DNA of 33,802 nucleotides from Cytophagia bacterium CHB2 (GTDB taxonomy: Bacteria > Zhuqueibacterota > Zhuqueibacteria > Zhuqueibacterales > Zhuqueibacteraceae). The stretch's first letter is position 1. Each line of letters starts with the position of its first letter. The stretch lies in NCBI GenBank assembly GCA_030263535.1, contig SZPB01000018.1, positions 1 to 33,802 of the forward strand, in the 5' to 3' direction. A program made the translations under genes and the position numbers. This document shows positions 3,497 to 33,706 of the stretch, piece by piece. Under the pieces are notes generated by a model. The model searched no databases and was not told the origin of the DNA. It worked only from the letters and a program-made list of their open reading frames with translations.

Positions 3497-3526
3497 GCTT
3501 GCGCCCTTTCGTGTTGACAAGTGAAA

Positions 3527-9664: not shown

Positions 9665-10893
9665 ATCAACCGTACCCTCCCGGTTAAAAGTTCCTGCATC
9701 ATGCCCTGCTTGAGCTGGCGAACTTTCGCGAGTTTGGCTTCCAGCGCGGCGATCTCGGCGTCCATGTCGCTCAGGATGGCGGCGATGGCGGTTTGTTCGG
9801 CCAACTCTGGCAAAGGAATCGGAACACCTCCAATCTCGCCCATGTTGATTTTCTTGGGGGAGGCGTTCATCAACGACCTTTCCTCAATATCAAGCCTGAA
9901 TTGGCGGCATTTTGTGTAACAATGGATATAGCGTGAATCTATGCCATGCTTCACCTTCAGCAAAGCCAAGCTCACGTAGATACTGGCCTCAACATCCCAA
10001 TCAATCAGCTTTGTATCGCCTATAGCACCGATACGGGTAAGGAGAATGTCGCCCTTTTCTGGCTTGCACCGTTTGACGAGTTGATTGTGCTCTTTCACGG
10101 ATATGAACTTTGTGTCCGCGAAGTTGTTGGCTGTAACATTCTCCACGCTGTAGAAAGGAATTCCCGTTTCCATGTATTGCGGTGTGAAATGAGTGCCGTC
10201 GGTAATTGAGCTACAAACGTCCATCAACGTCTTCACCTCCCACTCTCCACTAAACTCCGGCAGGCGCTTCTTGCCGGTGAGCAACTCCTGCATGGCGCCT
10301 TGTTTGATCTGACGTTTTTTGGCGATGAGCTGCTCCAGCGATTCGATGAGGGCATCCGCATCGCTCAACGCCTCGGCGATGGCTTCTTGTTCGGAGAGGG
10401 AGGATGGACGCGGAATTGGAACTTTTTCGAATTTATCCTTCGGTAAGTGGGCAATACTAGTTTGCGTTACAAAGTTGGTCAAATATCCAGTTGATGCCAA
10501 CCGTTGAAGTACGTTTAACATCAATTGCACTTTGTAACCACGAATTGGCCGAAGTCTATGCAATGCTTTCTGATAATAACATTCCGCAATCGGTTCGTTC
10601 CAAATTGCAGCGCGCCCAATTTCTCCCCCTTCGCAAACAAGAAGGTCACCTTTGAGCAGTCGAAAACGTTGGAGATCAGACGGAGTCATTCTGATAACAC
10701 CAAGGTCATTGAGATCTATGCGCCCCCACTGGACGGCTCTATTGCCCAAATAAGACTTTGGTACGCCGACGTTTTTTTCAGAATCCAACATTTTACCGAG
10801 TTGGATTGAGAATTCGTTGCCTACTGTGGTAACGTCCCAATCCTCCGGAATCAACCCCACCTCTGTCTGTTTGTAGCCCGGCTTCATTTCCAT
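9661..10893 (-). CDS. hsdS: Type I restriction enzyme specificity subunit (HsdS)
   Basis: DNA recognition subunit with the normal two-fold layout. The first target recognition domain begins KQTEVGLIPEDWDVTTVGNE and the second at GEWEVKTLMDVCSSITDGTH. Each is followed by a conserved helix of the pattern EQEAIAEALSDADALIESLE or EQTAIAAILSDMDAEIAALE, then KQG-M-QELLTGK/R. Length is 410 residues, as usual. The start chosen is ATG 10893, which overlaps the end of hsdM by ten bases and has GGAAAGGA upstream; ATG 10887 is an ATGA-overlap alternative. A reading extending to 11070 is only an out-of-frame read of hsdM. The target sequence cannot be deduced here. Confidence 0.95.
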   Translation of the reverse strand: MEMKPGYKQTEVGLIPEDWDVTTVGNEFSIQLGKMLDSEKNVGVPKSYLGNRAVQWGRIDLNDLGVIRMTPSDLQRFRLLKGDLLVCEGGEIGRAAIWNEPIAECYYQKALHRLRPIRGYKVQLMLNVLQRLASTGYLTNFVTQTSIAHLPKDKFEKVPIPRPSSLSEQEAIAEALSDADALIESLEQLIAKKRQIKQGAMQELLTGKKRLPEFSGEWEVKTLMDVCSSITDGTHFTPQYMETGIPFYSVENVTANNFADTKFISVKEHNQLVKRCKPEKGDILLTRIGAIGDTKLIDWDVEASIYVSLALLKVKHGIDSRYIHCYTKCRQFRLDIEERSLMNASPKKINMGEIGGVPIPLPELAEQTAIAAILSDMDAEIAALEAKLAKVRQLKQGMMQELLTGRVRLI

Positions 10894-18694: not shown

Positions 18695-18776
18695 TGAAAA
18701 CGACGCTAAAATATCACCAACATTTCGAAGATGATCTCCAAAACAAGGGTTTACGCTCGAAAAACGCGCATCACCG

Positions 18777-18826
18777 TCGGTCTTATAACCCAAAGGTCGG
18801 AGGTTCAAATACTCTCCCCGCAACCA
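18777..18826 (+). pseudogene. 3' half of a tRNA gene (attachment-site scar)
   Basis: The sequence from the anticodon arm on looks like an initiator/elongator Met- or Ile-type tRNA: a loop CTTATAA (anticodon position TAT), AAAGGTC, a T arm GGAGG-TTCAAAT-ACTCT, and acceptor CCCCGCA-A-CCA ending at 18826. The 26 bases that should form the 5' acceptor and D arm have no tRNA character (a TGCGGGG would be needed). The anticodon stem carries two mismatches. This is what remains when an integrative element targets the 3' part of a tRNA gene. It is not a functional tRNA. Confidence 0.65.
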
Positions 18827-18851
18827 ATCTAAATCATTGATTTTGTGTAGC

Positions 18852-18879
18852 AAGGGAATCCAAAAGATTCCCTTTTTTG
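18852..18879 (+). terminator. Intrinsic terminator behind the tRNA scar
   Basis: AAGGGAATC-CAAAA-GATTCCCTT, a nine-base-pair perfect stem with a T-run (ttttttgtttt) directly after it, 25 bases downstream of the tRNA-derived CCA. It would also end vapBC transcription. It probably belonged to the original tRNA gene or came with the element. Confidence 0.8.
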
Positions 18880-18889
18880 TTTTGTGGTA

Positions 18890-18919
18890 GGGACAAATTG
18901 GGACAGGAGGGGACAGGGT
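18890..18919. repeat. Three GGGACA direct repeats with exact 10-bp spacing
   Basis: GGGACAAATT, GGGACAGGAG and GGGACAGGGT stand head to tail at 18890, 18900 and 18910, one helical turn apart. The position, just behind a tRNA-derived CCA and terminator, is where integrase arm sites lie in tRNA-integrated elements. An array of this kind fits binding of several protomers on one DNA face. Confidence 0.6.
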
Positions 18920-19475: not shown

Positions 19476-19664
19476 ATGTCCAAGCCCGCGCCGGAGTACC
19501 GGCATTTGTTGGTCGCGCTGTTGGGCCGCACGCCTCAGGTTTTGACCGAGACGTTGTATACCCTGTGCGTACAGAAGGGCATACCCATTTCGGAAGTTTC
19601 GGCTATTTCCACACAAGAAGGCCGGGAGGTAGCGCTCGATATATTGCTCGAACCGCAAGATTGA
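19476..19664 (+). pseudogene. Truncated paralogue of the CARF (Cas_NE0113-type) protein
   Basis: The 62 codons read HLLVALLGRTPQVLTETLYT then LCVQKGIPISEVSAIST, which matches the first ~55 residues of the complete CARF gene that follows (LAMLGLHPKVLTETLYGLCV). The frame then ends at TGA (19662). Reading through gives WFWLEQL, which aligns with EFYKLC in the intact protein at the position where that protein has Gly. The TGA therefore probably arose from a GGA codon. The frame remains open to 19805 but soon loses similarity. This is the decayed first copy of a duplicated cOA-sensor gene. Confidence 0.75.
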
Positions 19665-19826: not shown

Positions 19827-20984
19827 ATGAAGCACCACCTGTTGGCAATGCTGGGCTTGCACCCCAAGGTACTGACTGAGACCCTCTACGGTTTGTGTGT
19901 CAAACGAGGGATCGCCATTACAAAGGTGATTGGCATAGCGAGTGGAGTGGCGAGGCAGAAGATCGTTTCCGAGCTGCTGAATCCCGTTACCGGCGAGTTT
20001 TACAAGTTGTGCCGTGAGTATCCGGAGTGTTTTACCGGCATTCAGTTCTCGGCGGAAAGTGTGCGGGTGGCCCGTCTCGGAGACGACGAAATAGCCGACA
20101 TCGCCAACTCACGCCAAAGCCAGGCGTATTTGGATTTGATCATGCGAACGGTGATGGAAATGACCGCGCACAAAGAGGTTTGCCTGCATAGCGTGGTCGC
20201 AGGCGGCAGGCGCACCATGAGCGTCTATCTCGCGATGGTAATGCAGCTTCTCGCGCGGCCGCAGGATCACATGTACCATCTTTTTGTCGAGCCGTGGGAG
20301 GCGGAGACAAATTCGGATTTCTTCTTTCCGCCCCGCCAGTCGAGGCCCATGACTACGTACGGCGGTCTGGCTTTCGATGCAAAGGATGTGCTCGTCGAAC
20401 TCGTGGAAATTCCTTTCCTGCATTTGCGGCCGCACGTGCCCGCGGAGCTGCTGCGCTCGCCCGACTATCAGGACATTCTCGCGTGGGTGCAGCGCGAGGT
20501 GAATGTTGCACCCCAACTCCTGCCACTCAGCATTGACGTAGATCAGCATCGCATTCTGATCGGCGCCATTCCAATCTCCCTGGAACCGGCGGAGTTGGCG
20601 ATCTATTGGTATTTTGCCGAGAAGAGTGCCAAGCGCGAGGAACGTGTTGCTCGGGAGTATTATGAAGGCTATTTCGAAAAGCCAAAGGCCGATGGACATT
20701 TCTCCCGCCAGGCTTCGGCGCGCATGAAGAGTCTGTATGAAACTCTGGTGCAGCGCCATGGCATGCGCAGCCGTTTTCTCAATGCTTTCAACAAGGAAGG
20801 CCGCATTGATTTGGAGCATCTGCGCCCGCACTTCAGCAACCTCAAGCGCAAAATCAGCGAAAAGTTTCTGGACGAAGATTTCAACCGCTGGTACGTCGTC
20901 TCCGCCATCGGTCCGCGCGGGGATACGTGCTATGGCATTCGGTTGGATCGGGAGTTTATTCGACTGCCGGAGGCAAGATTGTGA
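19827..20984 (+). CDS. CARF-domain CRISPR protein of the Cas_NE0113 type with C-terminal winged-helix-like region
   Basis: A 385-residue protein. Residues 1-180 form a CARF (Rossmann-like) domain that binds cyclic oligoadenylate in type III CRISPR systems. It starts HHLLAMLGLHPKVLTETLYG and contains HSVVAGGRRTMSVYLAMVMQ (119-138) followed by DHMYHLFV, the hallmark of the NE0113 family. Members of this family are thought to act as cOA sensors or ring nucleases. The second half (SLEPAELAIYWYFAEKSAKR near 255, then a long helical stretch to FLDEDFNRWY) resembles a winged helix plus helices, suggesting a DNA-binding or regulatory output. No HEPN or other nuclease motif was seen. It precedes the CARF-HEPN gene by about 90 bases. 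Confidence 0.82.
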   Translation: MKHHLLAMLGLHPKVLTETLYGLCVKRGIAITKVIGIASGVARQKIVSELLNPVTGEFYKLCREYPECFTGIQFSAESVRVARLGDDEIADIANSRQSQAYLDLIMRTVMEMTAHKEVCLHSVVAGGRRTMSVYLAMVMQLLARPQDHMYHLFVEPWEAETNSDFFFPPRQSRPMTTYGGLAFDAKDVLVELVEIPFLHLRPHVPAELLRSPDYQDILAWVQREVNVAPQLLPLSIDVDQHRILIGAIPISLEPAELAIYWYFAEKSAKREERVAREYYEGYFEKPKADGHFSRQASARMKSLYETLVQRHGMRSRFLNAFNKEGRIDLEHLRPHFSNLKRKISEKFLDEDFNRWYVVSAIGPRGDTCYGIRLDREFIRLPEARL

Positions 20985-21075
20985 CAAGGTTGGGAGGGTA
21001 GCGGCTAATCTCTGCTCTTCCGATTTTTTACAGGATTTCAAATTGTGCGCGTTCATTCAATTGATGGAGAAAAAC

Positions 21076-22686
21076 ATGCCGTGCGACGTCGATAGTTTGA
21101 AAAGCCAAACGGAGAATTATTGGCGCAATTTACAAGATGCCAATAGCGAGAGGGCCCGTGACGGAATTGTTCAAAGCGTTTATCTTGAGAGCTTGCTCCG
21201 CGATGAAATTGCCTGCGCAAAGGAGCGCGCCCTCACCCAAGAGGGCGTTTGGCCGCAAGAACAGGCCGAAGTGCTCGTGCTTTTAGTCGGCCACTCCATC
21301 GAGCCGCTCTTACAAACCGTTTGCGCTTATGAACCAAAAGAAATCGTTTTGGTTTTGAGCCAAAAATACAACGCGCCTAACGACGGGATGCTCTTTGCGG
21401 AAGATCATGTACTGCCTTGTCTGCGCGCGCTGAAAGAGTTGGAATCGCCGCTCCTAAAGCGGCATTTTGCAGAGCTTCGCTGTGTTTGTCCGAAACCAGG
21501 GCAAGGCAGCAGGCCCGGCGATGTTTTTCAGCTACTCTTTGAAGCTTTGAGCGAAGACGTCAAGAAGAAAAAAAATATCATCATTGATATCACCGGCGGC
21601 AAGAAGAGCATGGTTGCCGGCGCCTATTTCTTTGCGACCTATACCAACGTCAAAATTTCTTATGTCGATTTTGAAGACTATCATGAAAGGAAACGGCGGC
21701 CTTACGGCTTCTCGTGCCAGATCGGCCTGCTTCCTAATCCCTATGAAATTTTCGGCCTGCGCGATTGGGAACAGGTCAAGAGCCTTTACAAACGCTTCTT
21801 CTTTGATGAAGCCGTCAAGAAACTGTGCATCATCGCCAAAGACATGTCGTCGGAGTATTTTAAACCTGAACAAATCACCGCAGTCGAAACGTTGATCAAA
21901 ATCATGCGCGTTTATCACGCATGGAGCGTGGGCGATTACGCGCAAGCGAAAAAGTTGAGCGACGAAGTAAAAGTCTTGCAGCCACTCGCCTCGGTTGAAG
22001 CATTGCACGATAAGTGGCCGGAGAATATTGACTCTGAGCCCAGGCTGCGACTAAGCGATTGGGATTTTTATTCCAATCACAAGCTCATTCTGCAATACGC
22101 GCTCGATGAAAGCGCCAAAGTGGACCGCATTGTGAAACTCAAGGAAGATTACCGCTCCGGTCTGTTGCGCGCTGCGGGTTTGAACGAGGTGTTGCTCAAA
22201 GCGCGGCTAGCTTTTTTGTGCGAAAGAAAGATGCTCTTGCTTTATAGAAAGGATCAAAAGCTGGCCGATGCCGACGCTCAAAACACCGTCGTCGATGGGC
22301 AACAAGTTAAAGCTTGGTTTGCGGAGGAGATACTGCGAGCAAAGAACAAGGAGAAAGTCCCTGCAAAAGCGGCACTGAAAGCAGAAAAGACCGAGAATGC
22401 CTTGCCATATATGAGCCAGTCACCAGAGTACCGTGCGATACTAACAAAAGATCGCGACCTCAGAAATGGAGTCATCCACTTCGTCATTCCAGTTTCAAAG
22501 CAGATCGCATACGAAGCCGTGGATGCAATGCACAAAAACGTGCAAGATTTCGAGCAAGTATGGGTGCAATCAGTTGACCCAAAACACCAAATAAAGCCGG
22601 ATACTTTGCCGACCTGGGAAGAATTGTGCGGATGGTGCAATATCGATTTTCTGCTGCATCCAAAGAAACAGGAGAAGCAATCATGA
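21076..22686 (+). CDS. CARF-HEPN ribonuclease, Csm6/Cas02710-like
   Basis: A 536-residue ancillary nuclease of type III CRISPR systems. The CARF half has VLVLLVGHSIEPLLQTVCAY and the ligand-loop motif DITGGKKSMVAGAYFF at Asp171, characteristic of the TIGR02710/Csm6-like group. The helical C-terminal half ends in a HEPN domain with the catalytic R-x4-H: Arg463 to His468 in DLRNGVIHFV. On binding cyclic oligoadenylate made by Cas10, such proteins degrade RNA non-specifically. The start is ATG 21076, six bases after GGAG; ATG 21064 is the alternative. The stop overlaps the cas10 start (ATGA), so sensor and signal producer are translationally coupled. Confidence 0.88.
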   Translation: MPCDVDSLKSQTENYWRNLQDANSERARDGIVQSVYLESLLRDEIACAKERALTQEGVWPQEQAEVLVLLVGHSIEPLLQTVCAYEPKEIVLVLSQKYNAPNDGMLFAEDHVLPCLRALKELESPLLKRHFAELRCVCPKPGQGSRPGDVFQLLFEALSEDVKKKKNIIIDITGGKKSMVAGAYFFATYTNVKISYVDFEDYHERKRRPYGFSCQIGLLPNPYEIFGLRDWEQVKSLYKRFFFDEAVKKLCIIAKDMSSEYFKPEQITAVETLIKIMRVYHAWSVGDYAQAKKLSDEVKVLQPLASVEALHDKWPENIDSEPRLRLSDWDFYSNHKLILQYALDESAKVDRIVKLKEDYRSGLLRAAGLNEVLLKARLAFLCERKMLLLYRKDQKLADADAQNTVVDGQQVKAWFAEEILRAKNKEKVPAKAALKAEKTENALPYMSQSPEYRAILTKDRDLRNGVIHFVIPVSKQIAYEAVDAMHKNVQDFEQVWVQSVDPKHQIKPDTLPTWEELCGWCNIDFLLHPKKQEKQS

Positions 22687-24302
22687 AACGTTATCTCGTG
22701 GCGGCCGACGCCGACCAAATTCAAAACCTGCTGTTTCGATCCTCGCACTTGCGCGAGGTCATCGGCGGCAGCATGATGCTGTCACGGTTTTGCAAGGAAG
22801 AGACGAACCCGGCGTTGGCGAAAATTATCACGGACTTTCACGGCAACGTCATTATCAACGACGGCGGCAGTTTCCGCCTAACCCTCGGCTCCGACAAAGA
22901 GGCGAAAGACTTTCTCGAATGCCTCGCAGACTTGTTCCGTGAAGAGACCGGCGGTACGCTAACCGTTGCCGGACCGATTGAGTATAACGACGGCGAGTTT
23001 CGAAGTAAGAACGAAACGCTCCAACTCGAATTGCTCAATGCAAAATACTACCGCACAGGCGCAGAGGCCGAGCCGCAATTGCCCGTCAGCGCATTTTGCA
23101 CGTCATGCGGAATTGGTTTGGCGGCGCAATATGCTAGACCGGCATGGGAGCTTCCCGGCGAAGAAAAGACCTATTTGTGTAATCACTGCTACGACAAGGC
23201 AGAAGACAAACTGCTCAAAGCGCATTTCTTCTATCAAGACTACCGTGATGCAATTAAGAAGAAACACGCCGCCGACTTCAATAAGTTTTTGGAGAATCCC
23301 AAAGACCCGGCCGAGCTTATCGGCAGCCTCGATGCAACACAATATGTCGGCTATGTTTTGGCGGATGTCAACGGCATGGGCAGGCATTTCAACCGACGTG
23401 AATCACCGGAAGACCTCACTAAGTTGTCCAATGATTTGACGGCCGCGCTCTGGGCAAGTCTAGCAGCGCCGATCCCGGATTTGATCAAACGCTTGCGGGA
23501 ACGCAAGAGTGGAGAACGTGAACTCATTGAGAAGTTGGAAAACCGCATGCCCATCGTTCCTCTCATCCTCGGCGGCGACGACGTGCTCGCACTCGTGCCT
23601 GCGCGTTATGCTTTAGATATTGGCTCCCGTTTCGGTGAAGAATTTGAAAAGCACATGAACGGAATCACCATCGGCGTGGCGGTGATCATTTGCCAAAAAC
23701 ATTATCCCTACACTTTGGCATATGAAAGAGGGCACAAATTGCTGGAGCAAGCGAAAAAGCACGGCAAGAGTCTTGGCACGCAAAAGCTGTCGGCGATCAA
23801 CTTCGAAGTGATTCTCGGCAACGAGCTGAAAGTTTCGGCGGAGGATGAAGTGGGTAAAGAAAAAGAGTATCACTCTTCGCTGAAGCCTTATTGGATCGGC
23901 GCCAAAGCAAATGCGGAGTCATCCGAGTCTTCGCATGCCGGAATTCATTTTGAGCGCATCCTTCATCATCGCCTCGCACTCAAAAACATTCCACAAAAGC
24001 GCTTGCACGAGCTGCGCCGTTTCTTTGACCCTCGGCGATTAAACGAGTTGCACAAAGACAAAGAACGAGAAGAGTGGAACAAAGGCTTCGAAGATTTTCT
24101 TCATAGGATAAAACCTGAAAGCTGGGCCAGTGCGCTGGAAAGCGCCATAAAAGAGTTGGGACCCTGGCGCAACATCAAGCGATGGCCAAAAAAGGATTTC
24201 GATCCCGCGACCGGCCTGCTCGATTTGATCGAAGCATGGGATTATGCTTACAAACTGGATAAGCCGGACAAAGACTACCAACCGAAGGAGTCACGAGCAT
24301 GA
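22683..24302 (+). CDS. cas10: Cas10-type subunit without HD domain, GGDD cyclase intact
   Basis: Large-subunit signature protein of type III CRISPR complexes, 539 residues. It begins directly with a palm-like domain (LVAADADQIQNLLFRSSHLR, then EVIGGSMMLSRF) of the Cas10/Cmr2 type, so the usual N-terminal HD nuclease is absent. A zinc ribbon follows (Cys139/Cys142 and Cys166/Cys169). The second palm has the catalytic residues LADVNGMGRHF (Asp228) and LILGGDDVLAL (GGDD at 297-300). The protein should convert ATP to cyclic oligoadenylate but not cleave DNA. The C-terminal helices (RFFDPRRLNELHKDKEREEW) complete it. The start has an AGGAGA ribosome binding site. The end overlaps the next gene by four bases. 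Confidence 0.92.
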   Translation: MKRYLVAADADQIQNLLFRSSHLREVIGGSMMLSRFCKEETNPALAKIITDFHGNVIINDGGSFRLTLGSDKEAKDFLECLADLFREETGGTLTVAGPIEYNDGEFRSKNETLQLELLNAKYYRTGAEAEPQLPVSAFCTSCGIGLAAQYARPAWELPGEEKTYLCNHCYDKAEDKLLKAHFFYQDYRDAIKKKHAADFNKFLENPKDPAELIGSLDATQYVGYVLADVNGMGRHFNRRESPEDLTKLSNDLTAALWASLAAPIPDLIKRLRERKSGERELIEKLENRMPIVPLILGGDDVLALVPARYALDIGSRFGEEFEKHMNGITIGVAVIICQKHYPYTLAYERGHKLLEQAKKHGKSLGTQKLSAINFEVILGNELKVSAEDEVGKEKEYHSSLKPYWIGAKANAESSESSHAGIHFERILHHRLALKNIPQKRLHELRRFFDPRRLNELHKDKEREEWNKGFEDFLHRIKPESWASALESAIKELGPWRNIKRWPKKDFDPATGLLDLIEAWDYAYKLDKPDKDYQPKESRA

Positions 24303-26800
24303 CATTGACATTCAAACTCGAACTGAAATCCGATTATCACGTCGGCGCCGGCCATCGCAAAGGCACGGAAATCGACTCCGCTTTGCTGCGTGAACACGAC
24401 GGACGCCCGGCATTGCGTGGCTCGTTGCTCGGTCAAATGTTGCGCGATTCCGCGCGAGAGTTATTGACGACTCCTGTGATGGCAAAGCATGGATATGGAA
24501 TCTGTAAAGCTTCGGGCGACCGAGAAGAGCCGGAGTATTGCGGCCAATGGCAAAATAATGAAGGCGTTTGCCCGATTTGCCGCGTCTTCGGCACACCGCG
24601 CGCGCCGCGACGCTGGCAATTTTCTTCCGCATGGTTGCAGGGAATGCAAGCCGGCGCAACAGCAGAGAATCATAGCAACGATTGGGGCGCGCAACCCGTC
24701 ATGCGCGTGCGCGTCAGCCCAGAAACTCGCCGCGCCGAAGCGAATAAATTGTTTAGCGAGGAGATCGGCGACAGTCGCTTGGTCTTTCGCTTCGAAGCAA
24801 CGTGGCAGGGCAACGGCAAGCCTGATGAAAAAGAAATCGCACTGTTAGCTGCCGCAGCGGCGAACATGCGGCATCTCGGCAAAAGCCGAAGACGAGGCCG
24901 CGGGGTGTGCCGAGTGCAATTGATCAAGGTTGACAACCAAGAGCCGCCTGAAAATGTTGACTGGCTCAAGCTGTTCAAGCAAGAATTGGTTGACAAGAAA
25001 TGGCAGCCCGAACCGCACGAGCAAAACAAATCGGCACCGGCGTTGAGCGCGGAATCGCCTGCGCCGGCTTGGCAACCGGTGCGCGTGCGTGTCGTTGTGC
25101 ATTTGGACGAGCCCGTTTTGGTGGCGCACCGTTCTTCGGCTGGAAATCAATTCGAAGGCCTCGACACGCTTCCCGGAAACATTTTGCTCGGTGCATTGGC
25201 CGCGCGCGCCGTGCGCCATCTCGATTTAGGCAAAACTGACGATTATCAAAACTTCGTCGGCCTCTTTCGTCGCGGTTGGGCGCGGTTTTCTTTTTTGGCA
25301 TTGGCTCATGAAAAACACGACAAGCTCTACCCCGCCTTTGCGTCGCCTCTGGATATCTTTCGCTGCAAGCGACAATCTCCGCATGACCCGCAAAGAAAAT
25401 TTTACGACCGTGCCTTTGCGCTAACGGAAGCGGAGAAAGAAAAAATCATTTGCGATCTCTGCGCCAAACAATACGATGAGGAGGACGCCGAGGTCGAAAA
25501 ACTCGAATGCCTTCAAACTTTGCGCGCCGGCTTTATGCAGGAACTCGCTTTTGAGCAACGCGAAGAGATGCACGTGCAAATCAACCCCGCAACGCAGCGC
25601 GCCGAAGACGGCAAGCTCTTCGAATATGTTTGCTTGCAAGCCGGCCAATATCTCTGCGGCGAAATCATTTGCCGCAATCAAAAGGTTTGGGAAGCTCTGC
25701 GCCAATGCGCCGAATTGATTGAAAGCATGGAAAGCAAACAGCAAGCGATTCCGTTGCGCTTGGGCAAAGCCACGCGCAGAGGTTATGGGCGCGTCTCGGC
25801 GTTTTTCTTTGTTGAAAAAGACGACAAGGGGCTTTATCAAAACACTCTGAGCCAACGCCTGCCCGATCCCAAGCAGCCGTTCACGCTTTTGCTCACCACC
25901 GACACGATCATTCGCGACAAGTGGGGCCGCTTTCCGACACGCTTTGAAGAAGATTGGCTCGCTGAAGCGTTGGGCTTGGAAAAGGGAGACCTCAAATTGA
26001 TTCGCGGCTTTGCCAAAACGCGCGAGATTGACGGATTTCATAACTACCTCGGCCTGCCGCGCTGGCGCGATCGCGCTTTTGTTGCGGGTTCGGTTGCGGG
26101 CATTCAAATCGTTGGCGGCAAATATACCAATGATGAGATTGTGAAAAAGCTGGAGCGTCTTGAATGGGAAGGCATCGGCCTGCGCCGTCACGAAGGCTTC
26201 GGCCAAATCGTGGTCAATCATCCGGTGTATGAAGCCATTAAAAATCCACACAGCGGAGCCCGAATTGATATCGAGTGGAAGAGCAAGCCGCAAAGAGTCA
26301 AGCTTGAAAACCAAATTGAAAACGAGCGCAAGTTTCGGCAAGATTGGGAAGGGATTCTTGCACAACTTGGCGACAAGCATCTCGACAAGCATCTCAAGGA
26401 GGGCCAACGTTGGCGGCAATTCGAGTTCAAAGAATTCGCGCCGGTCGCGCGGCTGCTGCGTGCGCGAAGCGATGCCGCGATCAGTGATCTTATAAAAGAA
26501 TTGCAGGCGTTGGGGGATTTCAAACTCGAACAACCCGAGGGCGAGAAAGAGCTATACGTGGAGAAAAAGCTGAACTACCGGATCAAGCTCGGAGAAAACC
26601 AAACACCCGCGCCGCGCGAGACCAAAAAGTTCTTCGAGAAAGAAGACAGGGGCAAGCCCGGCATCGAATTGATCAAAGAGGCTTTTGCCAAGTTGCAAAC
26701 GACTTCGAATGACGCGAAACTGCGCGCCATCGGCGTGGAAATGCTCGCCTTGATCATCGCCGAGGCCGCCAATCGCGCCATCAAAGAAGGGAGAAAATGA
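24299..26800 (+). CDS. Fused Cas7-Cas5(Csx10)-Cas11-like subunit of a type III-D variant complex
   Basis: An 833-residue multidomain RAMP protein. Residues 1-215 are a Csm3-like Cas7: HVGAGHRKGTEIDSALL with Asp26 at the position of the RNA-cleaving aspartate, RGSLLGQMLRDSA, zinc cysteines ending in CPICRVFGTP, and a Gly/Arg-rich KSRRRGRGVCRV strand. Residues ~258-640 are Csx10/Cas5: LVAHRSSAGNQFEGLDTLPG, NILLGALAARAV, CDLC (~385), and a glycine-rich loop LGKATRRGYGRVSAFF. The last ~170 residues are mainly helical and fit a Cas11 small subunit. The same order is known from the Cas7-5-11 fusion of the III-Dv complex. It probably caps the crRNA 5' end and cuts target RNA. Confidence 0.85.
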   Translation: MTLTFKLELKSDYHVGAGHRKGTEIDSALLREHDGRPALRGSLLGQMLRDSARELLTTPVMAKHGYGICKASGDREEPEYCGQWQNNEGVCPICRVFGTPRAPRRWQFSSAWLQGMQAGATAENHSNDWGAQPVMRVRVSPETRRAEANKLFSEEIGDSRLVFRFEATWQGNGKPDEKEIALLAAAAANMRHLGKSRRRGRGVCRVQLIKVDNQEPPENVDWLKLFKQELVDKKWQPEPHEQNKSAPALSAESPAPAWQPVRVRVVVHLDEPVLVAHRSSAGNQFEGLDTLPGNILLGALAARAVRHLDLGKTDDYQNFVGLFRRGWARFSFLALAHEKHDKLYPAFASPLDIFRCKRQSPHDPQRKFYDRAFALTEAEKEKIICDLCAKQYDEEDAEVEKLECLQTLRAGFMQELAFEQREEMHVQINPATQRAEDGKLFEYVCLQAGQYLCGEIICRNQKVWEALRQCAELIESMESKQQAIPLRLGKATRRGYGRVSAFFFVEKDDKGLYQNTLSQRLPDPKQPFTLLLTTDTIIRDKWGRFPTRFEEDWLAEALGLEKGDLKLIRGFAKTREIDGFHNYLGLPRWRDRAFVAGSVAGIQIVGGKYTNDEIVKKLERLEWEGIGLRRHEGFGQIVVNHPVYEAIKNPHSGARIDIEWKSKPQRVKLENQIENERKFRQDWEGILAQLGDKHLDKHLKEGQRWRQFEFKEFAPVARLLRARSDAAISDLIKELQALGDFKLEQPEGEKELYVEKKLNYRIKLGENQTPAPRETKKFFEKEDRGKPGIELIKEAFAKLQTTSNDAKLRAIGVEMLALIIAEAANRAIKEGRK

Positions 26801-28578
26801 TGACCGAAAAAAAATATCAAGCCGTGATCGCCGAACTGATCTTCGAAACGGCGCTGCACGTGGGTACCGGCCGCGACAATCCCGGCACCGATGCACCCGT
26901 GCGCCGCAATAACACCGGCGACCTCGTGATTCCCGGAACCGCGATTGCCGGCGCACTGCGAACACTCGCAACTCGCCTCGCGCCGCGAATCGATCTGACA
27001 GCAAAGCGAAAGTGTATCGAACTTTCTTATGAAGACAAACAGAAGCGCGAAGAAGATAAAATCTGTGGCTGCGCGGTTTGCCATCTCTTCGGCGAGTTCT
27101 ATCCCAACAAGAAAAACACCAAAACCGAAGATGATGGCGGTCGCGCCTCGCGTTTGTGGATTTACGATGCCAAGCTTATCTCTGCGCCGCGGCCCTTCGT
27201 GCGCGACGGCGTAGGCATTGATCGCAGAACCGGTGTTGCGGCCAGCGCCGCGCGGGTGAAGTTCGATACCGAAGTCGTTCCCGCCGGAGCCAAGTTTGAA
27301 TTGCGTGTTGAAATGGAAGACGTCAACGATAATGACCTGAAGTTGCTCGCCGCAACGCTCGCGGAATGGCAGGCGGGTCGCGCCTGGCTCGGCGGCAACA
27401 CCGCGCGCGGCTTGGGCAACGCCAAGCTTGACAAAATTCGTTTCATGCGCAATGAGTTGGATACTGGAAAGCAGTTATTAGATTATCTCAAAGCTGATGA
27501 CCCGAAGGACGCTGCCACAGAAGTTACAGACTGGTTGAAGCACAAGGTCGCAAATGCGCGCGAAAATCCCAATCCTGGTTACAACGGCAAGAATCGGCCG
27601 TTCCTCGCCGCGAGTTTTCAACTTGCGTTCGACGGCCCGTTTTTGATGCACGACGCCACTGCGGCCACGGTCGTGGGCTTCGATCATCTGCCCTTGCTCG
27701 ACGCTGTTCCTGGATTTAATGAAAAACCGCGACCACCCCTCATGGCCGGCTCAGGCTTGCGCGGCGTTTTGCGCTCGCACGCCGAACGTATTGCGCGCAC
27801 GATTGCTTCATTCAACGCTTACAACGCATACAAAGAAGGCAAAGGCGAGGCAAGCAAGCTATTTCTCAAAAGTTGCCCGGCGTGCAATCCGTTGGAAGAT
27901 GATGCCACGAAACCTTTGACAAGATGCGATAAGTTTTTGGAAACCTCCGAGGAATTTGAGAAAATAAAAGACCATGTCGAAGATAAGCACCTCTGCCTCG
28001 GCTGTCTCTTGTTTGGCAGCACCGTGCGCGGCAGCCGTTTGAAAATGATGGATGCGAAGCTCGAAGGTGAGCCGCAATGGAAGCTGCTCGATTTTCTTGC
28101 CATCGACCGCTTTACCGGCGGCGGCTTGGAAGGCGCGAAGTTCGACGCCATGGCCTTGTGGCGACCGACCTTCAACGTGAAGTTGTTTCTCGAAGAGCCG
28201 GAAGATTGGGAACTCGGTTGGCTCGCGTTGGTGCTGCGCGATATGATCGAGCAGCGTTTGACTTTCGGCTTCGGTGCGGCGAAGGGCTTTGGCCATGCGC
28301 GAGCGCAAAAGATCGAAATTCAATGCGGCTTCTTGCGGGATGATGATTGGGGCGTTGATTTCGGTAAAATCAAACCCAAAGATGAAAATGTGCCCGGCTT
28401 CTATCGCGTGGCAAAATTCACCGAAGCTGATTGGGAAGCGCAGAAAAGTATCGTGAGCAAGTGGGTCGAAGTTTTTCGCACGAAGCTAAAACGCGAAGGC
28501 GAAACTTTGCCAACTCGCAAGCAAGACTCCTACTTCGATGGCAATCTTGAAAAACTCTATCCCCTGACGGAGGCTTGA
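26797..28578 (+). CDS. Double Cas7 (Cas7-2x) backbone subunit
   Basis: A 593-residue protein with two consecutive Csm3-type RAMP domains. The first (1-210) has LHVGTGRDNPGTDAPVRRNN with Asp32 at the catalytic position, VIPGTAIAGALRTLA, a CGCAVCHLFGEF zinc motif and a glycine-rich GRAWLGGNTARGLGNAKL loop. The second (~268-590) has GPFLMHDATAATVVGFDHLP, PLMAGSGLRGVLRSHA, a split Cys motif ending in HLCLGCLLFGST, and a final LTFGFGAAKGFGHA loop. Each domain would cover part of the crRNA spacer. Domain one has the cleavage aspartate; in domain two no clearly equivalent residue stands in the same context. It overlaps the previous stop by four bases. Confidence 0.87.
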   Translation: MMTEKKYQAVIAELIFETALHVGTGRDNPGTDAPVRRNNTGDLVIPGTAIAGALRTLATRLAPRIDLTAKRKCIELSYEDKQKREEDKICGCAVCHLFGEFYPNKKNTKTEDDGGRASRLWIYDAKLISAPRPFVRDGVGIDRRTGVAASAARVKFDTEVVPAGAKFELRVEMEDVNDNDLKLLAATLAEWQAGRAWLGGNTARGLGNAKLDKIRFMRNELDTGKQLLDYLKADDPKDAATEVTDWLKHKVANARENPNPGYNGKNRPFLAASFQLAFDGPFLMHDATAATVVGFDHLPLLDAVPGFNEKPRPPLMAGSGLRGVLRSHAERIARTIASFNAYNAYKEGKGEASKLFLKSCPACNPLEDDATKPLTRCDKFLETSEEFEKIKDHVEDKHLCLGCLLFGSTVRGSRLKMMDAKLEGEPQWKLLDFLAIDRFTGGGLEGAKFDAMALWRPTFNVKLFLEEPEDWELGWLALVLRDMIEQRLTFGFGAAKGFGHARAQKIEIQCGFLRDDDWGVDFGKIKPKDENVPGFYRVAKFTEADWEAQKSIVSKWVEVFRTKLKREGETLPTRKQDSYFDGNLEKLYPLTEA

Positions 28579-28579
28579 T

Positions 28580-29224
28580 ATGAGCGAATTAGGAAAGCTT
28601 GAATGGAGCAAAGATAAATTTGCGGTTTGGGGTGGAAAGCTGAAACCGACTGAATGGCTCGACTTTCTCGAAGCATGGAAATGGAAAGACGACAAGCGCT
28701 GGCGCATATTGGAATTCGTCAGCGACTTCAAAATCGAGGACGATAAACCGCAGATTATTTCTGAAAAGGATATTCCGCTTTTGGAGCGCGCCGAGTTTTT
28801 CGGCAAAAGCGGCCACCTGAGCACGCGCCGCGACGGTGAAACGGTTTATTGGCACTTCGTCGGCGAACGTGACATCAAAGTGCCGGATGGCTATGATGAC
28901 GTGAAGAACAATTATTGGACGGCGCATCCCGAAGATAAATTCCGCCGCTCTGAAAAGCACATGCTCCTCTGGGGCGAGCGCATCAAAGATGGGGACACAT
29001 GGACGAACGATTGGTTTGATGACCGCGTCGGTTGGGCGAAGTTGAGCTATCCTCATGTTGAAGAGCCAAAAAATGGCAATGCGGAAAATCAACCCCCTGC
29101 TGCCAAAGAACAAAATCAGCGCGTGCAAGCGAACTACTGGCAATTCACCCGCGCCGGACAGGTGGCATTTGTATGGCTTACGGGTCTGAGCGAATATCAA
29201 CCGCAAGAGGAACAAAATGGCTAA
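28580..29224 (+). CDS. csx19: Csx19-like type III-D CRISPR protein
   Basis: A 214-residue protein with the TIGR03984/Csx19 pattern: ERAEFFGKSGHLSTRRDGET, then VYWHFVGE, then a KHMLLWGERI strand followed by WFDDRVGWAKLSYP. Csx19 is a III-D-specific subunit; in the known III-Dv complex it sits on the backbone near the double Cas7. The start has GGAGG six bases upstream and follows the previous stop after a single base. A Glu/Gln-rich disordered linker (about 155-178) precedes a last strand QANYWQFTRAGQVAFVWLTG. The end overlaps the next gene by eight bases. Confidence 0.8.
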   Translation: MSELGKLEWSKDKFAVWGGKLKPTEWLDFLEAWKWKDDKRWRILEFVSDFKIEDDKPQIISEKDIPLLERAEFFGKSGHLSTRRDGETVYWHFVGERDIKVPDGYDDVKNNYWTAHPEDKFRRSEKHMLLWGERIKDGDTWTNDWFDDRVGWAKLSYPHVEEPKNGNAENQPPAAKEQNQRVQANYWQFTRAGQVAFVWLTGLSEYQPQEEQNG

Positions 29225-31634
29225 AGGCGAAATCGTTGCTTGGAAAGAAGATCGAGGCTTCGGCTTTATTCAACCCGAAAGCACAAACACGCAGGAAGCG
29301 CAGTTGTTTTTTCATATCAATGATGCGAGAGCCGTGCCGCGTGAGCAATTGCGCAAAGGTACTCAGGTGGAATATTCCGTCGGTCCAGGCAAAAAGAGCA
29401 AAACTGCTGCTAAAAATGTGCGCATTGCGGGAATGCCTGCTCCGGCACAGCCTCAGCAGCCGAGAGAAAAGAAAGCAGAAAGCCGCCAAGTTCAGCACTC
29501 TTCAAAAGGCTATCGCTTTCTCAATCCCTACAACTTTGCGCGTTGGCTCGAAAGTCCGCAGTCGATTCTAAGTCATCCCGACACACGTTATCTCAACAGG
29601 CAACCGCCTCCGCCGCATGACCGGTGGGTTGGGAAGTCCGGTGAGATCGAGTGCGAATTGACGGCATTAACGCCGATTTTTATATCGGATTCTCTCGCCA
29701 AATTCGCCAATGAAACCGACAAAAAAGAACTGCACAAATCTTTTGAATTTTTCAATGTCCCCAAAGGCGACGACTCTGAGCCGATCCTGCCAGCATCGAG
29801 CTTGCGCGGCATGGTTCGCAATATTTTCGAGGCAGCAACGAACTCGTGTTTCGCCAGTTTCGACTACGGACAACGGCTCAGTTATCGCCTCGCACCTAGT
29901 GAGGCTTTGAAGCTCGTTCCGGCGCGGGTGCTGGCCCCCAGAAATAAAGGCGAAGTTTGGCGACTGCAGCTTATGCTGGGCTCGGCAACGCTTACGATTG
30001 GCGAAAACCCACGCCGTGGACCATATGCTGCCACCGTGCGGCAGTACCCGCGTGCTCCACAAGCTGGCAAAGGTGAAGTTCCATCTGCGCATCATGAAAT
30101 TGTAGATATCAATGACTACAAGCATGGCAGTGAATGCTATGCTTTAGCTAAAATACCACGGCAAGGCCCCCTTGTCTGGAATGTGACGCATTTGGCAGAT
30201 TCGTATGAAGAACTCGAACCCTTGCAGGATGATCGTTCGGAGATTTTAAAAGGCTATCTTTGCATCACCAATCAAAACATCGATCTCAAAGTTAAAGAGC
30301 GGTTCTTCATCTCCGAGTACAAAGACAGCCCGACGCTCAAGGAGATTGAATTGCCAGACAATGTGTGCGTGGAATACGAAGAGTTGATCCGTGATTATCA
30401 ATTGCGGCATCGTGAAACCGTTGAGACGTGGCGCAAGCAGCATTATGACCCATCAAAACCTCGCAAGATAAAAAAGACGCAGGGGCGCGAAGTCTGGGAA
30501 CCCGCTTTTAGCCGGTTCATTTTGGAATCTACCTACAAACTCAAGGGCAACGAGTTGGTTTATGCCTACCTGGAAAAAACTGCGAAAGGCATGAAAGTGC
30601 GATTCATTGCGCCGGTTTCCATTCCTCGTGTGGGATACCAAAACAAAACATACTTAAGACTTCCGAGCCACCATTGGAAATGCGAAAGCCATGACAAGCT
30701 TTGCCCTGCTTGTCGCACGTTTGGTTGGGTTGAAGGCCGACCAGGAGTCGAGAAAAATGAACGGGAGAGTGATCGGAACAAGATTGTGGCTTATCAAGGC
30801 CGAGTGCAATTTACCCACGCGACGCTGGATGAATCTCAGCAACAAAAGCCTATGGACGAAATCACCCTGGCAATTCTCTCTTCACCCAAGCCCACGACCT
30901 CGCGCTTCTATTTAATGCCTGTGAAGGCGAAGCCTGAATCCAAACAAGGTGCGCCCGACGAGCAAGTGGGATACGATGCGCCGGACATGATCATTCGAGG
31001 CCGCAAATTCTTTCGACATCATCCAACTGCGAATAGCAACGAGTATGAGCGCGTTCGCGGCATTCCCGACGATCAAAACCGTACGATCAATGGGGCTCTT
31101 CCTGTAGGAACGAAATTTCGTTTCAAAGTTAGATTTGAAAATCTCGCAGCGGTTGAGCTTGGCGCGTTGCTCTGGGCGCTGGAGATGGAATCAAACATGT
31201 GTCACCGTTTGGGATTTGCCAAGCCTTTAGGCTTCGGCAGCGTCCGCATCAACGTCACCGGTATTCGGGAATTGAACCTAAAACGTTACGACTCGTTGGA
31301 CGGTGAAGGTTGGCAAGCTCTAACTGAGCAAAAAGCGGAGCTCATCCGCCGATTCAAGGCGGCAGTGGCGCACGCCTATTATCGTAAAGATGAAAACGAG
31401 TTCGCGAAGCTGGAGAATATCGCTGATTTGAGCAAGATGCTGAATACGTCTCAGCCGCAGCTCCCGATTCACTATCCGCGACCGCAGGAAGTCCCTGATG
31501 CCGAGGGAAAGAATTATGAGTGGTTCATGGGCAACAAGAGGCCGAAAAGAGGACCAGGCTATCTTCTGCCGCTTGCGGTTGATGATACGGCGGGATTTCC
31601 ATTGATGGAAAAGTTTGGAAACCTGAAAGAATAG
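29217..31634 (+). CDS. Cold-shock-domain fused to a large TIGR03986-type Cas7 (Cas7-insertion) subunit
   Basis: An 805-residue protein. Residues 1-70 are a CspA-like cold-shock domain: GEIVAWKEDRGFGFIQPEST (RNP1 = RGFGFIQ), QLFFHINDA (RNP2 = LFFHI), then KGTQVEYSVG. A charged linker (Pro/Gln/Lys-rich, 71-92) joins it to a RAMP domain starting GYRFLNPYNFARWLE, the PYNF start of the TIGR03986 family. This continues with LTALTPIFISDS, LPASSLRGMVRNIFEA, a long insertion (about 240-480), a CPACRTFGWVEG zinc site, and the closing MCHRLGFAKPLGFGSVRINV loop. In the III-Dv layout this is the Cas7-insertion subunit. The cold-shock domain should add single-stranded RNA binding. An AGAGGAAC ribosome binding site precedes the ATG. 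Confidence 0.88.
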   Translation: MAKGEIVAWKEDRGFGFIQPESTNTQEAQLFFHINDARAVPREQLRKGTQVEYSVGPGKKSKTAAKNVRIAGMPAPAQPQQPREKKAESRQVQHSSKGYRFLNPYNFARWLESPQSILSHPDTRYLNRQPPPPHDRWVGKSGEIECELTALTPIFISDSLAKFANETDKKELHKSFEFFNVPKGDDSEPILPASSLRGMVRNIFEAATNSCFASFDYGQRLSYRLAPSEALKLVPARVLAPRNKGEVWRLQLMLGSATLTIGENPRRGPYAATVRQYPRAPQAGKGEVPSAHHEIVDINDYKHGSECYALAKIPRQGPLVWNVTHLADSYEELEPLQDDRSEILKGYLCITNQNIDLKVKERFFISEYKDSPTLKEIELPDNVCVEYEELIRDYQLRHRETVETWRKQHYDPSKPRKIKKTQGREVWEPAFSRFILESTYKLKGNELVYAYLEKTAKGMKVRFIAPVSIPRVGYQNKTYLRLPSHHWKCESHDKLCPACRTFGWVEGRPGVEKNERESDRNKIVAYQGRVQFTHATLDESQQQKPMDEITLAILSSPKPTTSRFYLMPVKAKPESKQGAPDEQVGYDAPDMIIRGRKFFRHHPTANSNEYERVRGIPDDQNRTINGALPVGTKFRFKVRFENLAAVELGALLWALEMESNMCHRLGFAKPLGFGSVRINVTGIRELNLKRYDSLDGEGWQALTEQKAELIRRFKAAVAHAYYRKDENEFAKLENIADLSKMLNTSQPQLPIHYPRPQEVPDAEGKNYEWFMGNKRPKRGPGYLLPLAVDDTAGFPLMEKFGNLKE

Positions 31635-31661
31635 ACGCCACAATCTTCAGGGAGCGTGAAT

Positions 31662-33044
31662 ATGCTAGCGGTAGAACCTTGCAAGCTGGTTGAGTTGGGA
31701 ACACTCATCTCGAACCTTCGTGCCATTGAAGCTGACGTCAGTGTAAAAAAGGCTCGAGGGCAGCTCGACTCCGTTTTCGATTTGCTCGGTCTCTTTGGTC
31801 TGCAAAGAACGATCAACAAAATTGACGGTATCGCTCAAGATATACGAAATCAATTTATAGATATTGAGAGCACAAACGGTAACGGCAAAGAGGAGACCGA
31901 TACTAGCAATTACGCCATCGGCATGGGTTTAGCCAATGATTTCGAAGCATTTGCGAATCAAGTTGAATCAGAACTGAAGCGTGAATGTGAAGATCGTGAA
32001 GAGCTTCGAATTTTCATTCCGGAAATGAAGCTGCATGAACTGAAAAGACTAATCAATACGGAAAAAGTCGTAAGTGAAGAATTTGTCGAAGGCGCGTTTA
32101 ATTGGCTGCCAAAAGTGGTGAAACACGACTTTAAAGATGCGGCCTGCTGTTTGTCTTATGGCGTGAGCACAGGTGCCGCTAGCTTAATGCTCCGTGCAAC
32201 AGAGGCTTCTTTACGGCACTTTTATCGTTGCTACTTGAAGACAGAGCCTTTCAACAAATCTCATTGGCAAAATCTGAAAAACAATTCGGATAGACAGGAC
32301 CAACTACTTCCAGAAACCCTTAATTGGTATAAAATGACGAAAGGGTTAGACGGGGTATTTCTGAATGAACATGATCCTGATTTATATCATGAACTTGAAA
32401 TATTGCGTGAACATTATCGCAATCCTACACAACATGCAGCACGAAGATTTGACAAAAGGGAGGCTGAGATGTTGTGGAAGAACTGCTGCAGTGCCGTCAA
32501 TCGAATTCATAATCGAATTCAAATAGAAGATGTAGTTTTGAAGGTTTGCATGCCATGGCCTTGCGATCTTGACACCTTGTTCGCTATTCATCTCATCAAT
32601 GACAACGCGGGCCTAATTGGCGAGTGGGAATTTGTTGGTCTCAACGACAAAAGCGATGACCATCAGGGAGGTTATGTGGTCAATTGCGCGAGGGGACAAT
32701 TCGACCGCAGTCAACTCAAAGAACCCAAATCCGCCAGTTGGATGCTTATAAAGCATTTCTGTTTACCTGAAGGCGGCGAATGGCAGAAACTTCTAAATCA
32801 TGTGAATCAGACCGTCGTTCTTTACAAAAAAAATCCCAATGTCGATCCCCCAAAAGGGCTTTGGGGCTATGTTCATTGGTACATGAAGAATATGGTTGAG
32901 GAAATATCTAAAATAGAAACCATTGAAAAATTCTTGCCATTGATTGAATCCTATCTTGGCGACAAAAACCCAACTGATTTAGCGATTCTAAAGGACTCCA
33001 TTCTTAAACTGAAATCGCCACTACCTCTACCTGAATGGCTGTAG
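31662..33044 (+). CDS. HEPN-like protein of unknown family directly behind the CRISPR operon
   Basis: A 460-residue protein of no family I can name. The start is ATG 31662 with GGGAG seven bases upstream (GTG 31656 is possible), 27 bases after the cas7 stop. Residues ~1-120 are charged helices. Residues ~150-280 look like a HEPN domain: LSYGVSTGAASLMLRATEAS, LRHFYRCYL, then LREHYRNPTQHAARRFDKRE with Arg253-Asn-x3-His258, the RNase motif. The last ~180 residues form a separate domain with PWPCDLDTLFAIHLIND, EWEFVGLND, GGYVVNCARGQFDRSQ and a final helical segment. This faintly recalls MYG1/DHH-type hydrolases, but the metal ligands are not evident. Spacing and strand suggest an ancillary CRISPR nuclease. 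Confidence 0.6.
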   Translation: MLAVEPCKLVELGTLISNLRAIEADVSVKKARGQLDSVFDLLGLFGLQRTINKIDGIAQDIRNQFIDIESTNGNGKEETDTSNYAIGMGLANDFEAFANQVESELKRECEDREELRIFIPEMKLHELKRLINTEKVVSEEFVEGAFNWLPKVVKHDFKDAACCLSYGVSTGAASLMLRATEASLRHFYRCYLKTEPFNKSHWQNLKNNSDRQDQLLPETLNWYKMTKGLDGVFLNEHDPDLYHELEILREHYRNPTQHAARRFDKREAEMLWKNCCSAVNRIHNRIQIEDVVLKVCMPWPCDLDTLFAIHLINDNAGLIGEWEFVGLNDKSDDHQGGYVVNCARGQFDRSQLKEPKSASWMLIKHFCLPEGGEWQKLLNHVNQTVVLYKKNPNVDPPKGLWGYVHWYMKNMVEEISKIETIEKFLPLIESYLGDKNPTDLAILKDSILKLKSPLPLPEWL

Positions 33045-33085
33045 AAAATTTTTTAATCTTCGTTGAAGGAAGACAGGAGCCTCCC

Positions 33086-33706
33086 ATGTCCCAAGACTTC
33101 ACCCCCGCCGAGCTCAAATCGCGGATTACCAAGCTCCACGATCCGCGCACGCCGCAGGAAGAGCTCAAGCGTATCGTCATGACGCTCGCACACCTCGATA
33201 ATGCCGAGGCATTGCAGGCGCTGGAGGAATTTCGTCAGTCGTCGCGCGCGGCGGAGGTCGAATGGATCGAGCAGGCGATTGACGAATCCACGTACTTCGT
33301 GTTGGAGCCAAAGAACGAGCGCGAGGAGAAAGATTACCTTCGCGTCGAGTTGTGGCAGGAATACGAAGAAGAGTTGTACGACAAAATGGCTCAGCGCGAG
33401 GCTGCGGAAGTCCACAAACAGCAGCTCGAAGTCGAGAAAGAATTCCTCGAAGAAGCCATGGCTGCTGCGCCGAATGAGAGCATCCGTTTGCAAGTCATAG
33501 CGCGCCACAGCGGCATTGACACTCTCATTCTCATGGCCGTGAACGATCGCATGAATCTCGAAGACGAAATTGTCGGCTTGGAATTCATCCTCGCGCAAAT
33601 TGAAAAGGCCGTCGAGTCGCCGCTCTATCGCACGCACGGCAAGCGCGAGATCGGTGTACATATTCATCGCGATTGCGAGACCTGGCTCAAAAAACGTAAG
33701 GAATAG
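33086..33706 (+). CDS. Charged helical protein of unknown function
   Basis: A 206-residue protein from ATG 33086, six bases after AGGAG. An in-frame ATG at 33035 would overlap the previous gene and lacks a site. The first part reads FTPAELKSRITKLHDPRTPQ, then LAHLDNAEALQALEEFRQSS, a HEAT-like helical pair. A very acidic coiled-coil follows (LWQEYEEELYDKMAQREAAE, VHKQQLEVEKEFLEEAM), then amphipathic helices and a basic end (RDCETWLKKRKE). No catalytic motif was seen. The Glu/Lys content and predicted helices suggest an adaptor or scaffold. It lies in the same direction as the CRISPR genes and directly before a membrane-anchored protein. Confidence 0.6.
   Translation: MSQDFTPAELKSRITKLHDPRTPQEELKRIVMTLAHLDNAEALQALEEFRQSSRAAEVEWIEQAIDESTYFVLEPKNEREEKDYLRVELWQEYEEELYDKMAQREAAEVHKQQLEVEKEFLEEAMAAAPNESIRLQVIARHSGIDTLILMAVNDRMNLEDEIVGLEFILAQIEKAVESPLYRTHGKREIGVHIHRDCETWLKKRKE

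Follow-up and report, generated by a model that had tools for sequence, protein, structure and literature searches.

A type III-D CRISPR effector operon of III-Dv architecture with a cold-shock domain in Cytophagia bacterium CHB2

Introduction

The closest described relative of the system reported here is the type III-Dv CRISPR complex of Synechocystis, whose Cas10 is described as having a GGDD motif and no HD domain, and in which mutation showed that Asp26 of Cas7-Cas5-Cas11 (Cas7-5-11) and Asp33 and Asp246 of Cas7-2x cut the target RNA (PMC11026444). The 3' seed of its CRISPR RNA (crRNA) is held by the Cas7-insertion subunit, and the N-terminal 112 residues of the same subunit were reported as an uncharacterised domain that is absent from the cryo-electron microscopy map (PMC11026444).

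Here we describe a related operon of Cytophagia bacterium CHB2 (assembly GCA_030263535.1), carried at positions 19827-31634 of contig SZPB01000018.1. The window analysed is the whole stretch of 33,802 nucleotides, which is one complete contig of a genome assembled in 681 contigs. The locus is III-Dv by architecture and III-D by descent; it is very probably a complete type III-D effector module that branches deeply and apart from the Synechocystis III-Dv complex. Its subunits, catalytic residues, domain order, cold-shock domain (CSD) and tree position can all be read directly from the sequence.

Subunit composition and architecture

ORF calling and hidden Markov model (HMM) searches placed seven open reading frames (ORFs) at 19827-31634, all on the plus strand, at about the coordinates given in the original prediction. 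That prediction, made from the sequence letters alone, had proposed the subunit set of Synechocystis III-Dv, and family and structure matches for every subunit bore it out. The first effector gene (22683-24302) encodes a Cas10 with an intact GGDD palm and without an HD domain (Pfam Cas10 palm2, 1.4e-15; PADLOC Cas10, 7e-51). Its start is most likely the ATG at 22683, which forms an ATGA overlap, and not the GTG at 22626.

The next gene (24299-26800) encodes an 833-residue protein identified by HMM, profile alignment and AlphaFold2/Foldseek as a Cas7-Cas5(Csx10)-Cas11 fusion with the conserved catalytic Asp26. Residues 6-204 match RAMP/Cas7 (3.6e-13), whereas the centre, residues 265-673, has the predicted Csx10/Cas5 fold, found by HMM, profile alignment and Foldseek alike (PADLOC Cas5_IIId, 6e-34; TIGR02674, 9.5e-21, which does not reach the curated whole-protein cut-off). 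Profile-profile alignment against ten cyanobacterial homologues covered 568 columns over Cas7-Cas5 with a probability of 99.9%. In the AlphaFold2 model (predicted local distance difference test, pLDDT, 65), residues 663-829 are all-helical, and the Cas11 part is identified by this fold only. The best match of the model in the PDB is Cas7-Cas5-Cas11 (8s9t/8s9x chain A, Foldseek E ~1.6e-24); its TM-score is low because the inter-domain placement is uncertain, and the model is thus taken as evidence at the level of domains. Altogether, the HMM domains, the profile alignment, the helical C-terminus and the Foldseek match describe the single-protein Cas7-Cas5-Cas11 of III-Dv.

The 593-residue Cas7-2x (26797-28578) consists of two fused Cas7 domains, matched by TIGR02581 in two stretches (9.3e-42) and by the Cas7_IIId model over its entire length (2.2e-117), with 8s9t_D as its PDB match (2.6e-23). 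It is followed by Csx19 (28580-29224; PADLOC Csx19, 7.2e-41), for which phmmer gave no match among PDB sequences, and by the 805-residue Cas7-insertion subunit (29217-31634; TIGR03986, 5.8e-115), whose residues 99-795 match 8s9t_E (7e-50). The operon thus possesses both the Cas7-2x and the insertion-containing Cas7 of the III-Dv architecture. Asp26 of Cas7-5-11 and Asp32 and Asp296 of Cas7-2x align with Synechocystis Asp26, Asp33 and Asp246, giving the same set of three aspartates, and Asp26 is invariant across the window's clade.

Two CARF genes precede the effector genes. The first (19827-20984) encodes a 385-residue CARF5 protein of the NE0113/TIGR02584 ring-nuclease family (TIGR02584, 2.7e-39, 135 bits against a cut-off of 80.65; PADLOC CARF5, 1.1e-67). 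The second (21064-22686) encodes a CARF-HEPN effector nuclease of Csx1/Csm6 type (PADLOC CARF1-CARF_HEPN, 1e-114) with the HEPN R-x4-H motif RNGVIH at residues 576-581 of ORF 20737-22686. This ORF opens at 20737, but the homology begins at the methionine at 21064, by which the gene start was set. All junctions had been predicted to be overlaps or gaps under 30 bases; this holds inside the effector operon, where the genes from Cas10 through Cas7-insertion overlap or, once, leave a 1-base gap, but not between the CARF5 and CARF-HEPN genes, which lie ~79 bases apart.

Phylogeny of the effector subunits

A homologue scan of 84,980 genomes yielded 79 loci, mainly from Chloroflexota (the closest, at 41-46%), cyanobacteria, planctomycetes and acidobacteria, with one archaeal record, Candidatus Jordarchaeum (L056). 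The core gene order, the same as on pSYSA, is kept in most of them. The window's own class, order and family contain a graded series from unfused to fused loci: fully unfused III-D1 (L135, L137, L139, L142 and contigs C397 and C308 of this genome) and intermediates of the form [Cas7][Cas5-Cas11][Cas7-2x] (L141 and L143), which also occur as plasmid loci (L133 and L134).

The Cas10 tree was rooted with III-A and III-B sequences, and a concatenated Cas7+Cas5(-Cas11) tree was rooted on III-D1; neither contains III-E sequences. In the Cas10 tree, the window lies inside a Chloroflexota-centred clade of 19-21 loci (Shimodaira-Hasegawa-like approximate likelihood ratio test, SH-aLRT, 100), whereas the intermediates join the Synechocystis clade as its sister (SH-aLRT 99 at this node). 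The concatenated tree repeats this order, with the split loci joining the Synechocystis clade. The distinct branch that the original prediction had suspected is thus supported by two gene trees. The CARF genes that it had offered as a reason do not mark such a branch, as Synechocystis III-Dv also has adjoining CARF genes of Csm6/Csx1 type.

The fused state requires at least three changes on the Cas10 tree, in which the unfused L144 adjoins the fused L140. As the fused loci do not form one clade, fusion arose more than once or was undone. The window might simply belong to the lineage of Synechocystis III-Dv, in which a single Cas7-5-11 fusion took place and the split-gene loci are later fissions. 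The shared core subunit order favours this explanation, and the step count is no obstacle to it: once fission is allowed, one fusion and two fissions (in a split clade of 12 rows and in L144) reach the minimum of three changes and are no longer than repeated fusion. On the other side, the split [Cas7][Cas5-11] loci and the Synechocystis clade are sisters in a group that leaves out the window clade (SH-aLRT 99 and 96), and a single clade of all fused loci, uniting both clades, is rejected with p-AU (approximately unbiased test) values of 0.005 (Cas10) and 0.020 (Cas7+Cas5), which are indicative only, as the group was named after the tree had been seen and long branches weaken them further. On balance, we consider a single fusion a serious contender that falls somewhat short of an even chance. 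If fused complexes did arise repeatedly, fusion would be easy and recurrent rather than a single event on the road to III-E.

Several related loci vary the architecture further. Contigs C308 and C397 of this genome (L011 and L012) hold unfused type III-D1 fragments, which places both architectures in one cell. In Crossiella (L084:5116-9444), Cas7-5-11 and Cas7-2x share one open frame of 1442 residues, a further collapsed effector, and a planctomycete with a very divergent Cas10 has taken another route of collapse, with two Cas7 domains and Cas7-insertion in one open frame of 1301 residues (L067:3185-7090). Two members of the window's clade (L039 and L045) have a Cas10 without a recognisable GGDD, and their signalling may be lost. 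In six Chloroflexota loci (L029, L030, L031, L032, L033 and L049), two Cas7-insertion genes stand in tandem, and the protein of the second has a basic tail at its N-terminus; such second copies are possibly alternative seed subunits.

The N-terminal domain of the Cas7-insertion subunit

The original prediction had spoken of extra domains, and one is found at the N-terminus of the last protein: a CSD encoded at 29217-29432 (Pfam CSD, 4.6e-9, or 1.4e-10 with the N-terminus alone). Alignment revealed an RNP1-like RGFGFI and an RNP2-like LFFHI motif. The equivalent N-termini were surveyed as 53 homologous extensions upstream of a conserved NPYNF motif. Pfam recognises a CSD in 12 of the 53 and an RRM in one, the poribacterial Cas7-insertion L060:320-2833 (RRM matches at 2e-24 and 7e-23), whose Cas10 neighbours L092 and L100 carry the CSD. 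Two comparisons connect a second family, of short N-termini, with the CSD family: an HMM score of 22 bits, where the best of 5,200 shuffles reached 11.8, and an hhalign alignment that covers 63 of 65 columns with a probability of 91%.

A third family includes Synechocystis (70 bits). A canonical CSD was not found by sequence in the Synechocystis N-terminus, and hhalign of the CSD family against this cyanobacterial-type family gave a probability of 2.6%. The model of the cyanobacterial-type N-terminus (pLDDT 84.9) adopts an OB topology with the order β1-3, helix, β4-5, and the structures closest to it come for the most part from cold-shock proteins and EF-P/IF5A (Z 5-6.9). The cyanobacterial-type N-terminus, including the 112 residues of Synechocystis, is therefore predicted to be a CSD-like OB fold, which would give a likely fold to a domain called uncharacterised in the published structure.

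We propose that the N-terminal domain forms a slot for single-stranded RNA adjoining the crRNA 3' seed. For the CSD itself, such a role at the seed end is a tentative assignment, which we place just below an even balance. CSDs act generally as RNA chaperones, and the domain might instead serve as an assembly chaperone, or bind the operon's own mRNA or the crRNA precursor, without contact to target RNA. The flexibility of the matching Synechocystis N-terminus, missing from the map, would suit such a function. Yet the CSD adjoins the exposed crRNA 3' seed, a free-standing chaperone would need no fusion, and the replacement of the CSD by an RRM in Poribacteria (L060, with CSD-bearing relatives L092 and L100) suggests selection there for RNA binding and not for the CSD as such. 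We therefore regard the chaperone function as possible but the less probable of the two.

Combining the trees with this survey, we tentatively propose that III-Dv evolved at least twice, by independent fusion of Cas7 with Cas5-Cas11 from unfused III-D, and that the subunit at the crRNA 3' end has in its N-terminus a general docking slot, which takes up single-stranded RNA-binding domains (CSD, CSD-like OB or RRM) and speeds seed capture; taken jointly, the two parts seem to us somewhat more likely to fail than to hold. Two results of the survey weigh against our overall reading of the locus. The match of the cyanobacterial N-terminus to CSD-like folds (Z <8, Foldseek E >0.05) supports an OB fold and does not prove homology to the CSD, and in four loci (L029, L034, L041 and L044) a short basic tail stands in place of any domain, which means that the architecture can do without the CSD. 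If true, the docking slot would explain what the unresolved domain of the Synechocystis structure does. The N-terminal domain offers a concrete and cheap way to test how type III complexes initially locate their RNA, and RNA-targeting tools could also be guided by this natural means of attaching an RNA-binding domain to the seed end. No link of a CSD or RRM with a type III Cas7 was found in the literature, which is weak evidence of novelty as most subscription journals lay outside the coverage.

Proposed working of the complex and crRNA supply

CARF-HEPN RNases are activated by the signal of Cas10, which ring nucleases remove. The simplest reading of the locus is crRNA-guided RNA cleavage combined with Cas10 signalling to CARF-HEPN, with CARF5 removing the signal. 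A Cas6 encoded on the next contig, ~5 kb further on, would cut the crRNA precursor, and one copy each of Cas10, Cas7-5-11, Cas7-2x, Csx19 and Cas7-insertion would assemble on one crRNA, if the stoichiometry is that of Synechocystis; complexes of the 332-kDa III-Dv type contain each subunit once and a crRNA of fixed length. By analogy with the same complex, Cas7-insertion would hold the crRNA 3' seed, and Asp26 of Cas7-5-11 together with Asp32 and Asp296 of Cas7-2x would make three cuts in the target RNA. Target binding may then prompt the GGDD palm of Cas10 to make a cyclic nucleotide signal that would activate the CARF-HEPN RNase, and the CARF5 protein probably degrades this signal.

Synteny with the congeneric genome G001 (86%) makes C288 the next contig after the window; it carries genes for Cas6 (8e-20) and, where the contig ends, a reverse transcriptase (1.7e-35). 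At the same place, G001 has a Cas6 gene and an array of ~132 repeats of 37 nt. The supply of crRNA is nevertheless unproven in this genome, which also weighs against our reading: neither the window nor C288, the surroundings of cas6 included, yielded a CRISPR array, and the repeat of G001 is absent from the 681 contigs. The repeats of 90 nt and of 117-123 nt in the window lie in ankyrin-repeat and WD40-like genes and were rejected as a CRISPR array.

Flanking genes and exchange of the cassette

The operon is followed by a co-directional accessory gene, P0008 (31656-33044, plus strand), for which family searches gave no match; an R-x4-H motif (RNPTQH) at residue 255 weakly suggests a HEPN domain. 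One R-x4-H each occurs in three dissimilar genes located 3' of Cas7-insertion (window 31656-33044, L027:2243-3211 and L026:2071-2895), and this position is perhaps a slot for accessory HEPN proteins. A conserved flanking gene that is not a Cas gene lies beyond it (33035-33706, plus strand).

Comparison with G001 (L027) revealed sharp changes in similarity along the locus. The CARF5 gene is 92% identical at the nucleotide level (92.7% in protein), whereas the proteins of the stretch 21000-33074 share only 30-44% identity (34-44% for the effector cassette) and the gene 3' of Cas7-insertion is unrelated; beyond a right border at ~33075, identity is again 83% at the nucleotide level. In both trees, the G001 effector is sister to the Acidobacteriota locus L034 (support 99-100) and not to the window. 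As the flanks are close orthologues and the G001 effector belongs to another lineage, the effector cassette has been exchanged in place between fixed neighbours.

Upstream of the operon, a decayed remnant of a second CARF5 gene (19500-19655, plus strand) reaches a TGA after ~55 codons; tblastn aligned it to residues 2-53 of the CARF5 protein (48%, E 4.6e-10), and at the nucleotide level it is 82% identical to a CARF5 start that lies at the end of a contig of the congener G002. Further upstream lies the 3' half of a tRNA-Met with its 3' flank (18775-18895, plus strand). The tRNA is intact at the same place in G001. Neither the Rfam scan nor the tRNA scan of the window gave a hit. The tRNA half lies at the inner end of 18 kb of DNA that also hold a tyrosine integrase (2450-3520) and all genes of a type I restriction-modification system (hsdR 5223-8372, hsdS 9661-11070, hsdM 10884-13298); this stretch looks like an integrated defence island.

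Comparison with known systems

The III-Dv system of Synechocystis sp. PCC 6803 (pSYSA; PDB 8s9t-8s9x; PMC11026444) shares with the window the five subunits and their order, the three catalytic aspartates, a Cas10 with GGDD and without an active HD domain, and CARF effectors beside the operon. The two differ in that protein identity is only ~24-29%, the window falls in a separate clade in both trees, and its Cas7-insertion has a canonical CSD compared to the diverged OB-like domain of Synechocystis. In addition, cas6 lies ~5 kb downstream behind unrelated genes, and searches of the window and of C288 gave no array.

The intermediate III-D loci, including those on the cyanobacterial plasmids Planktothrix p3 and Nostoc pNsp_a (L133 and L134) as well as L141 and L143, have the same operon order and fused Cas5-Cas11 and Cas7-2x. 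However, their first Cas7 is a separate gene, and the trees place them with the Synechocystis lineage rather than that of the window. Type III-D1 has the same ancestral gene set and order in unfused form, with single-domain Cas7, Cas5 and Cas7 genes. In type III-E, the C-terminal Cas7 domain of Cas7-11/gRAMP is matched by the window's Cas7-insertion (2.5e-52), whereas the effector is one protein without Cas10 and Cas5; the window encodes five proteins from separate genes, with an intact and active-looking Cas10, and therefore is not a III-E system.

That the system belongs to type III-A or III-B and was mistaken for III-D is practically excluded, as the weak matches of Cas10 to the Cmr2 and Csm1 models (2.3e-9 and 4.2e-9) score far under the model cut-offs, the hallmarks Csx10, Csx19 and Cas7_IIId are present, and Cas10 groups in the trees with III-D, outside both reference groups, as originally predicted. 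In III-B complexes, Cmr6 sits at the crRNA 3' end. A III-B Cmr6 (PDB 9arw_H) also carries a CSD on a Cas7-like subunit, which matches the CSD of the window with an E-value of 2.6e-8 but belongs to another subunit and subtype, and this suggests that the CSD was recruited more than once.

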